The notes under the pieces: model-generated | Told to the model about the DNA's origin: nothing | The model's input: the letters and a program-made list of their open reading frames with translations, nothing else | Database searches by the model: none | From: Pseudalkalibacillus salsuginis | GTDB lineage: Bacteria; Bacillota; Bacilli; Bacillales; Fictibacillaceae | Direction of reading: 5' to 3' | DNA: 64,000 bases | NCBI RefSeq assembly: GCF_021646685.1 | Contig: NZ_JAKJHW010000003.1 | Coordinates: 186,001-250,000 of the forward strand | Part shown: one piece after another, positions 54,272-58,891 of the stretch | Layout: the number at the start of each line of letters is the position of its first letter | Numbering within the stretch: position 1 is the first letter of the stretch | Program-made: the position numbers and the translations under genes

Positions 54272-54436
54272 ACGTTCTATAAACTTCGGATTTCATTGTT
54301 ACTCGGTTTTTCCGGTCCTCCGACGTACAGGAAGTACTAGAACCGGCGTTGTCACAGGACGTGATGATTTTAGCCGGTTTCATTTCCGGTCTTCAAAACC
54401 ATTGTGCCTCGACCTCCTTGTTTCTATAACGTCTAC
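54268..54436. repeat. Long imperfect inverted repeat between flgL and yviE
   Basis: The arms 54268-54284 and 54420-54436 are complementary at 14 of 17 positions and enclose a region with several CCGG-containing short palindromes (about 54310-54390). The left arm includes the flgL stop codon. It may form a large structured 3' end, or be the footprint of a small mobile repeat. Confidence 0.5.
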
Positions 54437-55973: not shown

Positions 55974-57461
55974 ATGAGAATTAATCACAACATCGCAGCT
56001 CTTAACACGTATCGTCAGTTGAATAGTGCATCTACAGCACAAGGTAAATCAATGGAGAAACTATCTTCAGGTCTTCGTATTAACAAAGCAGGAGATGATG
56101 CAGCTGGTCTAGCAATCTCTGAAAAAATGCGCGGACAAATTCGTGGTTTAGAAATGGGTTCTAAAAATGCTCAAGATGGTATCTCTTTCATCCAAACAGC
56201 TGAAGGTGCATTAAATGAAACTCATTCTATTCTACAACGTATGCGTGAACTAGCTGTTCAATCATCAAACGATACTAATACTGATGCTGACCGTTCTGAA
56301 CTTCAAAAGGAAGTTGACCAATTAGCAGAAGAAATTACTCGTATTGCTAATAATACTGAGTTTAACACAAAATCTCTTTTAAATGGTGCTGTTGATGATA
56401 ACAATGTAAAAGCTGCAACTTTCCATATTGGTGCAAATGCAGGCCAAAATTTAGAATTAACTATTGGAGCTATGGACGCTAAGTCTTTAGGTGTAACTAG
56501 AGATGTTCAGTCTGCTAAAGTTTCAGGAGCTACAGATGTAACAGGAGCAACACTAAGCGGTACTCTAGGCACAGCACTTACTGATGGAGCTTCATTAACA
56601 TTAAGTGCTGATGATACTGCTGCAAAAACTACTTGGAGTGCTGCCGATTTAGGAATTACTGGAACATCTTTGGCATCTACCTCAAATTCTTCAGAGTATA
56701 ACGATTATACAATAACAGTTACTAAAACTGGTGGAGCTGGTGCTGATGTAACTGCTGCTATTGATTCAACTGCAAAAACAATTACAATTAACTATTCTTC
56801 AGATGTAGCTGCAGCTGGTAGTACGGCTGCTAAATTACAGTCGGCATTAGATGGAGCAAATATTAATTTAACTGCAACTGGTGATGCTACTGCTGTTGCA
56901 GGAGGTACAGACGTTGCCGCAACTACAGCAGGTTTAGCTGATGATGAAGTGAAATTAACAATAGGGTCAGAAGATGTTATTGTAAAAGATACAGCTACTT
57001 CTGCTACGTTCACAAGTGCGGCAAACCAAGGTCTAACTGTTAATCTAGATGGAGCTGTTACTGGTTCTGCAGCAGCTACTATTGATATTGGAATTAGTTC
57101 TTCATCAGAAGCAACATTTGCTGGTGGAGCAAAAACAGCTGACGCTAATGTTGCTGGCGGTATTGACATTTCATCTCAATCTGCAGCAGATACAGCTATC
57201 ACAGCTATTAACACTGCAATTGAAACAGTGTCTACTGAACGTTCTAAATTAGGTGCTTATCAAAACCGTTTAGAGCACACAATTAACAACTTGAACACAT
57301 CTTCCGAAAACTTAACTGCTGCTGAGTCTCGTGTACGTGATGTAGACATGGCAAAGGAAATGATGGAGCAAACAAAGAATTCTATTCTTTCTCAAGCAGC
57401 ACAAGCAATGTTGGCTCAATCAAATCAGCTTCCGAACGGAGTTTTACAACTTCTAAGGTAA
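55974..57461 (+). CDS. hag: Flagellin Hag: unspliced reading frame (exon 1 to 57416, then intron-encoded C-terminus)
   Basis: ATG 55974 (MRINHNIAALNTYRQLNSA) has AAGGAGGA 8 nt before; upstream in-frame codons lie in the leader. The D0/D1 N-terminal domain (1-~165) and C-terminal domain (from ~400) are typical. The middle is an Ala/Thr/Gly-rich hypervariable insert, making 495 residues against about 304 in B. subtilis. Codons up to GCT at 57414-57416 are exon 1 (481 codons). From 57417 the frame runs into a group I intron that encodes QSNQLPNGVLQLLR and a stop at 57459-57461. Splicing would instead join exon 2 (57780-57824), giving QANQQPQGVLQLLR and exactly the same length. FliW and CsrA control its translation; sigma-D drives it. 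Confidence 0.95.
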   Translation: MRINHNIAALNTYRQLNSASTAQGKSMEKLSSGLRINKAGDDAAGLAISEKMRGQIRGLEMGSKNAQDGISFIQTAEGALNETHSILQRMRELAVQSSNDTNTDADRSELQKEVDQLAEEITRIANNTEFNTKSLLNGAVDDNNVKAATFHIGANAGQNLELTIGAMDAKSLGVTRDVQSAKVSGATDVTGATLSGTLGTALTDGASLTLSADDTAAKTTWSAADLGITGTSLASTSNSSEYNDYTITVTKTGGAGADVTAAIDSTAKTITINYSSDVAAAGSTAAKLQSALDGANINLTATGDATAVAGGTDVAATTAGLADDEVKLTIGSEDVIVKDTATSATFTSAANQGLTVNLDGAVTGSAAATIDIGISSSSEATFAGGAKTADANVAGGIDISSQSAADTAITAINTAIETVSTERSKLGAYQNRLEHTINNLNTSSENLTAAESRVRDVDMAKEMMEQTKNSILSQAAQAMLAQSNQLPNGVLQLLR

Positions 57462-57779
57462 CTGATTGAAGGGCGTCTTATCTGGTAACGGATGAGAGTA
57501 TAACTGGGTGAATTGCTGGAACTTCCTTAAACTCTCTCAACCACAACGTAGCTGTAAACGGCACGCGTGAAGGTTTGAAAATGAGAGAGATTGGATAATC
57601 AGCAGCCAAGCTCCTGTGAGGAAACTCTGGAGAAGGTTCAACGACTAAGTCGGACTATCTAAGGCTAAAAGCTATGATGATGAGGACTGTAGGGTGGGAA
57701 TACCATTCGAAGTGCCCAGCCCCTTAAAACAAGGGTGAAGATATAGTCTATTCTATGATCGAAAGACATAGCGGCGAAG
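57417..57779 (+). ncRNA. Group I self-splicing intron in hag (363 nt, no internal ORF)
   Basis: The four core elements are in order: P AATTGCTGGAA (57511-57521), Q AATCAGCAGCCAAG (57597-57610), R GTTCAACGACTA (57636-57647) and S AAGATATAGTC (57738-57748). GACTA of R pairs with TAGTC of S as P7. Further helices are P2 (57477-57482/57491-57496), P5 (57532-57538/57583-57589) and P9 (57753-57757/57767-57771). Exon 1 ends in T and the intron ends in G, as the class requires; joining GCT to CAAGCC restores the canonical MLAQANQQPQ frame. At the 5' end CAATCA (57417-57422) pairs with TGATTG (57463-57468), and only GCT/GGC (57414-57416/57472-57474) is seen for the exon-guide pairing, a weak P1. The loop between holds the exon-2 mimic. 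Activity is untested. Confidence 0.9.
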
Positions 57780-57824
57780 CAAGCCAACCAACAACCACAA
57801 GGAGTTCTTCAACTTCTTCGTTAA
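57780..57824 (+). CDS. hag: hag exon 2 (native flagellin 3' end)
   Basis: Fifteen codons read QANQQPQGVLQLLR and stop. This is the canonical C-terminus of Bacillus flagellins, here separated from exon 1 by the intron. It has no start codon or ribosome binding site, so it is meaningful only after splicing. Two alternative ends of equal length now exist for the protein: this one and the intron-encoded one. Confidence 0.9.
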   Translation, partial: QANQQPQGVLQLLR

Positions 57825-57838
57825 TCAATTTCAAATTA

Positions 57839-57864
57839 ATGGTCGTCTCAATCGAGGCGACCAT
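57839..57864. terminator. Shared terminator of hag and the homing endonuclease gene
   Basis: An 11-bp stem (57839-57849 with 57854-57864, one G-U) has an AATC loop. It starts 14 nt after exon 2 and covers the last codons and stop of the convergent endonuclease gene, so it can serve both. T tracts are short on both sides. Confidence 0.65.
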
Positions 57865-58891
57865 CTTTACGTAACTCTGAAACTTTATATACGATAGACC
57901 AATAACTTCTGTTTAAACTTTTGGCTATTTCTTTATCCTTCACTCCTGATTGTTTCAATGTAATAATTCGTTTAATTTCTTCATAACTGTAATTCTGTTG
58001 GTTATCTGAAGAGCTTGTTTGAATAGTTATATTTCTTCCGTATTTTTTGTATATACGATTCGAAATAGATTCAATTTTCTTTTCGATATTTGTTTTATAT
58101 TGCATTGAAGGTATACATTTTGAATAAGGAGCTATTATCTGTAAAAATTGACGAACTTCCTTTACTTTATTAATCTTTAATAGGGATCCATGACCATGAG
58201 GGTGGCTTGATACTACAAAATTCGTTTTAAATAGGATATTAATATGATTTGCTAGTTTATGATTCTCATTTCTCTTAAAGTTTAATGTGGAAATAGTTAT
58301 ACCTGGAGTACAATAAACAGTTTTTTTGTTTTTATTCAATCGAGTAGTCATTGAAAGGCTTCCATCATCTAGGTAAAGTGCAGTTAAAAACATGGGGTGC
58401 ATACATTTACTAAGGAAGTTATCAGTGAGGACTTTTGAACTGCCATTATAAAGGACATTTCTTAAACTAGTGAAGTAGGGGTGACTGCCTGAGCGTAGAT
58501 AATTCCCGTTTATTGTAAAACCCAGGTTTTCTAGTTGTGATAATTTCCATTCTCTATAATCTCTTTGGGACTCCCCAAAATGTTCTTGATAAGCAAAATT
58601 AATACTCCGTTTTGCGCCTAGGCTAATATAACCATCTCCTAGTAAACTACCATAGAGTAATTGCTCTTGTATAAAAGTTGGTGAAAGGCTAGGAATGTTC
58701 TCCTCATACCACTTTCTTCTATTCTTCACTAACTGATTTTTAAGTTCATTTAAGTAATCTTCATTTTTGTTAATATGATTTTTCTTTGCAATTGTCCGTA
58801 CTTTAAATTCAGAGAGGTTTAAATACTTAGCCACTTTTTCTGTACTTTCAAAAGGGAAATGCTTTTTAATATACACAATTATCTCATCCAT
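57848..58891 (-). CDS. Free-standing LAGLIDADG homing endonuclease
   Basis: 347 residues. Two LAGLIDADG motifs, LYGSLLGDGYI (79-89) and LTALYLDDGSL (169-179), each with an acidic metal ligand, indicate a single-chain enzyme. A helix-turn-helix-like N-terminus (about 14-40) and a second one at the C-terminus (about 303-342, with IITLKQSGVKDKEIAKSLNR) flank the nuclease core. GAAGGAGG precedes the ATG, and there is a promoter with a LexA-type box. It lies outside the intron, on the opposite strand, in the hag-flaG gap where B. subtilis has no gene. It is A/T-rich compared with its neighbours, a sign of transfer. I infer that it cuts intronless hag alleles near GCT|CAA; that site is untested. 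Confidence 0.88.
   Translation of the reverse strand: MDEIIVYIKKHFPFESTEKVAKYLNLSEFKVRTIAKKNHINKNEDYLNELKNQLVKNRRKWYEENIPSLSPTFIQEQLLYGSLLGDGYISLGAKRSINFAYQEHFGESQRDYREWKLSQLENLGFTINGNYLRSGSHPYFTSLRNVLYNGSSKVLTDNFLSKCMHPMFLTALYLDDGSLSMTTRLNKNKKTVYCTPGITISTLNFKRNENHKLANHINILFKTNFVVSSHPHGHGSLLKINKVKEVRQFLQIIAPYSKCIPSMQYKTNIEKKIESISNRIYKKYGRNITIQTSSSDNQQNYSYEEIKRIITLKQSGVKDKEIAKSLNRSYWSIVYKVSELRKDGRLD

Follow-up and report, generated by a model that had tools for sequence, protein, structure and literature searches.

A group I intron in flagellin genes of Bacillota with a putative recoded spare 3′ exon

The interrupted flagellin gene of Pseudalkalibacillus salsuginis

The window, i.e., the whole stretch of 64,000 nt from Pseudalkalibacillus salsuginis that was analyzed, contains a flagellin gene (hag) on the plus strand that is interrupted by a group I intron. 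Exon 1 was identified as an ORF at 55974–57416 and ends with ...AMLA, with GCT as the last codon. It is followed by an intron of 363 nt (57417–57779, plus strand) and by exon 2 (57780–57824, plus strand), which encodes the native protein end, QANQQPQGVLQLLR, shared with hag genes of the genus that lack this intron. The insertion point lies between an Ala and a Gln codon, 14 codons upstream of the gene end. The Rfam model RF00028 matched the intron core at 57443–57771 (78.7 bits, E 5.5e-19) and also matched the core in seven loci submitted to Rfam, and the intron boundaries were derived by comparison with 109 homologous introns. A terminator-like inverted repeat was found by direct reading downstream of exon 2 (57840–57863, plus strand), and a free-standing gene for a LAGLIDADG homing endonuclease (57848–58891, minus strand; Pfam LAGLIDADG_2, 1.9e-15) is oriented convergently with hag. 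Two further RNA elements were observed, a Bacillaceae-1 RNA of Rfam at 54324–54388 on the minus strand of the window (59.2 bits), and, elsewhere in the same genome, another group I intron in an apparent class II ribonucleotide reductase gene (L021, G000:C7:283400-287600), a gene name that rests on reading the ORF.

In the ORF list, the hag reading frame stays open without a stop codon from 55974 to 57461, and the end of this reading, QSNQLPNGVLQLLR, is encoded by the first 45 nt of the intron (57417–57461, plus strand), called the mimic in the following. The initial annotation had described these 14 codons and a stop codon as an in-frame parallel of exon 2 (QSNQLPNGVLQLLR versus QANQQPQGVLQLLR), and direct reading agreed with it also in the details, i.e., identity at 11 of 14 residues and 31 of 45 bases, and six synonymous codon pairs (Asn, Gln, Pro, two Leu, and Arg). 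The predicted equality of the two products was recovered as well: the spliced reading (57416 joined to 57780) and the unspliced reading both comprise 495 aa with a single terminal stop. The unspliced protein matched Pfam Flagellin_N (2.2e-47) and Flagellin_C (2.9e-27). The 45 nt are not simply the native end of hag, an alternative that the initial annotation had named as a refutation. Among eight genomes of the genus, four hag genes without this intron (L005, L006, L007, L009) all end with QANQQPQGVLQLLR, and in the first three of them the native end is followed by a terminator-like repeat, similar to the one after exon 2 in the window. Intron and mimic are present in three members of the genus (G000, G001, G003). 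The 45 nt were placed inside the intron because of the pairing between exon and internal guide sequence (IGS) and because of the terminal intron G.

The 5′ strand of P1 at the splice site (57414–57417, plus strand) consists of the exon nucleotides G-C-U and the first intron C and was assigned by direct reading and by the pairing in homologues, from which the IGS, GGGC at 57471–57474, was also located. By direct reading, U57416 is opposite G57472. The first nucleotides of the intron pair with the sequence preceding the guide: the 5′ strand of the upper P1 (CAAUCA or AAUCAG) lies within codons 1–4 of the mimic (57417–57428), and the 3′ strand (CUGAUUG) was read at 57462–57468. Therefore, codons 1–4 help to form P1, and codons 5–14 are mostly located in its loop. 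In the first 81 introns, the pairing with the own partner had a mean of −8.07 kcal/mol, compared to −6.06 kcal/mol with shuffled partners, and none of 2000 shuffles was as good, but only 50 of the 81 introns paired better with their own partner than the median of their row.

The splice signals are highly conserved. The triplet preceding the intron is GCT in 108 of 109 cases and TCT in one, and the last intron base is a G throughout (109/109). An exon GCT is combined with GGGCGY in 106 of the 109 introns, and the exon/IGS pairing is kept in all of them. In L144, both sides have changed, and the exon UCU pairs with GGGA; in L169/L170, GCU is opposite GGGU, with one G.U pair. The features typical of group I introns, i.e., the catalytic core (P3–P8), the U.G pair and guide pairing in P1, and the terminal G, are all present. 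Another 5′ splice site, within the stop codon of the mimic (after T57459), was considered together with joining to 57772, which would generate a doubled end. It was rejected, as none of the homologues retains this pairing, its bases are part of P2, and homologues retain GCU/GGGC instead.

Distribution of introns with and without the mimic

Homologous introns were collected from overlapping samples of 34 genomes of the family, 397 of the order, 299 of the class, and 398 of the phylum, and from Sporosarcina luteola. After removal of duplicates and broken copies, the collection, which is not a random sample, comprised at least 109 complete introns at the hag site of the window. Several matches were left out, namely an intron in another gene (L035), copies that were incomplete or decayed (L089, L109, L179, and the second one of L071), duplicates (L115, identical to L114, and L129, L131, L134, L136, L140, L177), the second match of G036, and L142/L171, in which only an intron after the Asp-Val-Asp codons of hag (DVD site) and an intronless hag end at the contig end were found. 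L085 was outside the search pattern and was added by hand, and weaker matches, e.g., in G425, G553, G563, G636, G759, G908, G945, and G962, stayed outside the collection. All values for pN/pS, codon use, and P1 shuffling refer to the first 81 introns.

The initial annotation had proposed an alignment of intron-bearing hag genes as a check. In this alignment, the mimic was found to be conserved: in 104 of the 109 introns, from at least 29 coded families plus Sporosarcina luteola, a stop codon follows after exactly 14 sense codons. The distribution is far wider than initially claimed, and with 104 of 109 introns at the same site the parallel between the mimic and exon 2 is not due to chance. The 104 mimics represent 97 different DNA sequences and 41 different peptides, and all of them contain VLQLL or ILQLL. 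Exon 2 is unbroken in all 109 cases, and the hag frame is uninterrupted up to the splice site in 57 of 109 by pattern and in two more by eye. In L076, exon 1 contains an in-frame stop codon, and the mimic is intact. The introns have lengths of 336–421 nt, with one exception of 1073 nt (L176), in which the mimic is retained alongside a LAGLIDADG reading frame.

The mimic is absent or disrupted in five of the 109 introns. In L100, it is interrupted by two stop codons, the only case of internal stops; this intron is situated behind a remnant of hag, and no match to the flagellin N-domain was found there. In the other four (L052, L104b, L141, L143), an unrelated 5′ intron end takes the place of the mimic, and in L052, L104b, and L143 the gene has an additional upstream interruption. 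These four introns show that the mimic is not indispensable, and on the intron tree its presence changes at least four times. In L104 (1165–3964), two hag genes were found in tandem, and Rfam detected five group I introns within 5.6 kb, one of which lies in the N-terminal domain.

At other insertion sites in hag, no mimic was found. The DVD-site introns have 5–6 sense codons before a stop codon (mimic in 0 of 58), as have related introns of other classes at a site a few bases upstream (0 of 7; L161, L164, L165, L167, L168, L173, L180). A DVD-site intron is also present in 32 of the first 81 genes with the intron, in at least 40 of all 109, and in, e.g., L003, L005, L006, and L007. Retention of a DVD-site intron would truncate the flagellin, whatever the mimic does.

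Of 81 loci, 21 (the window among them) have a LAGLIDADG gene just past exon 2 on the opposite strand, with two of the matches being weak (L059, L110). Together with the reading frame inside the intron of L176, this is the linked homing endonuclease gene typical of homing introns. On the first tree, which has 25 family labels and weak branch support, the host family changes at least 40 times, which suggests transfer.

Constraint on the mimic and co-variation of the two ends

The initial annotation had also proposed selection on the encoded peptide. The results were in accordance with this proposal, both in a pN/pS of about 0.21 in the first 81 introns and in the way in which the mimic residues track the native end of the host. 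The first 81 introns yielded 78 mimics (73 distinct), for which pN/pS was 0.213; it was 0.144 for the loop codons 6–14 and 0.064 for VLQLL, and in the two shifted frames it was 1.06 and 4.28. In the true coding regions of hag next to the mimic, pN/pS was 0.127 for exon 2 and 0.227 for the final 20 codons of exon 1. In codons 6–14, the non-synonymous share of the differences from the consensus was 0.243, compared to 0.754 for random substitutions, the lowest of 300 random runs being 0.699. This pattern suggests that the spare ending has been kept by selection across species.

In addition, the mimic follows the residues of the host's own end. The last residue agrees between mimic and exon 2 in 102 of 104 cases (R/R 92, Q/Q 5, G/G 5; K/R 2), and residue 8 agrees in 99 of 104 (G/G 83, A/A 12, S/S 4) and disagrees in five (S/G 2, S/Q 2, A/G 1). 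Departures from the usual residue that are shared by both copies were encoded by different codons in 21 of 26 cases, e.g., Ser as TCG versus AGC in L099, and therefore these cases are not due to conversion of one copy by the other. The number of independent pairs on supported branches is small, with five pairs for each of the two traits and p only 0.0625 for each trait alone. For either trait, there were seven independent pairs, of which a mean of 6.8 changed in the same direction (median p 0.016).

The codons of the two copies differ in their usage. In the first 81 introns, the last Arg codon of the mimic is AGA (45), AGG (15), CGG (7), or CGA (2) and never CGT; CGT encodes 65 of 70 last Arg residues of exon 2 and 420 of 709 Arg residues in exon 1. 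The fraction of loop codons identical to those of exon 2 was 0.379, lower than the expected 0.464. The avoidance of exon 2 codons is modest, and inheritance from one ancestral mimic could explain part of it.

A possible role of the mimic in failed splicing

We consider it probable that the intron in hag is mobile and contains a recoded spare 3′ exon, which would make a failure of splicing harmless. The exon 1 GCU would pair with the guide GGGC, and splicing to exon 2 would generate the native flagellin end. The P1 loop would have become a coding region, with the first 14 codons of the intron restating the missing end in other codons, followed by a stop codon. Because the end and the stop are restated, an unspliced message, whether splicing has failed or is still pending, would be translated into a full-length flagellin, not into one without the end for export and assembly. 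C-terminal truncation spoils the assembly of flagellin. Selection for the peptide would keep the mimic, most likely because flagellin is abundant and truncated subunits would be a waste or would spoil filaments, and splicing presumably fails often enough in cells to matter. Recoding would avoid long identical repeats and leave the insertion site interrupted for the neighboring endonuclease. We also lean, with less confidence, toward the more far-reaching view that the P1 loop has been domesticated as a recoded spare 3′ exon, which selection has maintained in many families within the Bacillota and which makes the host protein complete regardless of the ribozyme, and that recoding protects the element from the endonuclease and from loss by recombination.

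It is rather unlikely that flagellin has two ends by design, which differ on purpose and are chosen by temperature or other conditions, e.g., for chaperone binding or filament packing. The differences in question are Ser for Ala at residue 2 and Met, Leu, Thr, and others at residue 5, and most mimics do have Ser at residue 2, where nearly all copies of exon 2 have Ala. Splicing of hag introns in thermophilic Bacillus has been reported to be temperature-dependent, according to the citation in PMC4853749. However, codons 1–5 lie in the P1 helix, and differences there may be forced by pairing, and the observation that the mimic follows changes of the host end fits sameness better than difference. 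Less probable still is a replacement without splicing, in which the intron stays permanently in the transcript, the protein carries the inserted end, and exon 2 is a relic that is renewed by transfer. The layout is the same as that of the mobile ORFs of Glomus and Allomyces, as far as described in PMC3630166, and the exon 2 DNA is highly uniform, with 50 distinct sequences among 81. However, the integrity of exon 2 (109/109) and its low pN/pS argue for its use, exon/IGS pairing and terminal G are always kept, and the four introns with an unrelated 5′ end would yield a full flagellin only if they are spliced. Lastly, an origin of the mimic without any coding-type constraint, for which one could cite that codons 1–4 do make the upper P1, is hardly tenable in view of the codon-position pattern, the low pN/pS of the loop codons, the tracking of residues, and the exact length of 14 codons in introns of 336–421 nt (one of 1073 nt).

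Group I introns are usually considered harmless since they splice. Under the favored reading of a spare 3′ exon, the hag intron appears to carry a second safeguard for failed splicing, in a protein that is among the most abundant in bacteria. This makes the frequency of intron splicing failure in cells and the evolution of insurance in selfish elements accessible to tests, and annotation and proteomics of flagellins may reveal two true C-termini per gene in many Bacillota.

Relation to known systems

The initial annotation knew of no described group I intron with a functional copy of its own 3′ exon. This claim has to be limited because a copy of the downstream exon was described for mitochondrial introns of a fungus (PMC7315562). 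For the hag mimic itself, no published description was found in the open-access literature that was searched.

Group I introns in hag are known from Geobacillus and other thermophilic Bacillus (Hayakawa and Ishizuka 2009, 2012, as cited in PMC3984707 and PMC4853749) and likewise reside in a flagellin gene. The temperature-dependent motility described for them in these citations would be unexpected with a working mimic and might fit the DVD site better. The mitochondrial introns of Tremella fuciformis also have a 5′ end that contains a recoded copy of the downstream exon. According to the sections of PMC7315562 consulted, these are six introns of one species, which were read as foreign gene pieces in exchange; unlike the case of hag, they are not bacterial, and these sections describe neither a deep conservation of both copies nor a 42-nt form in a P1 loop. 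The mobile ORFs of Glomus and Allomyces share with the hag intron an endonuclease-linked C-terminal copy with divergence at silent sites and a conserved protein. In contrast, the native end of atp6 was not found in the mRNA with the gene, and the parts of PMC3630166 considered describe no self-splicing that restores it. IStrons are likewise group I introns that limit the damage to the host gene. However, they contain transposase ORFs, and a copy of the host exon is not mentioned in the passages of PMC4227781 considered; no transposase ORFs were found in the hag introns of 336–421 nt, nor in that of 1073 nt with its LAGLIDADG ORF. Taken together, as far as these sources describe them, the nearest precedents are the fungal mitochondrial introns and the mobile ORFs with duplicated ends of host genes.
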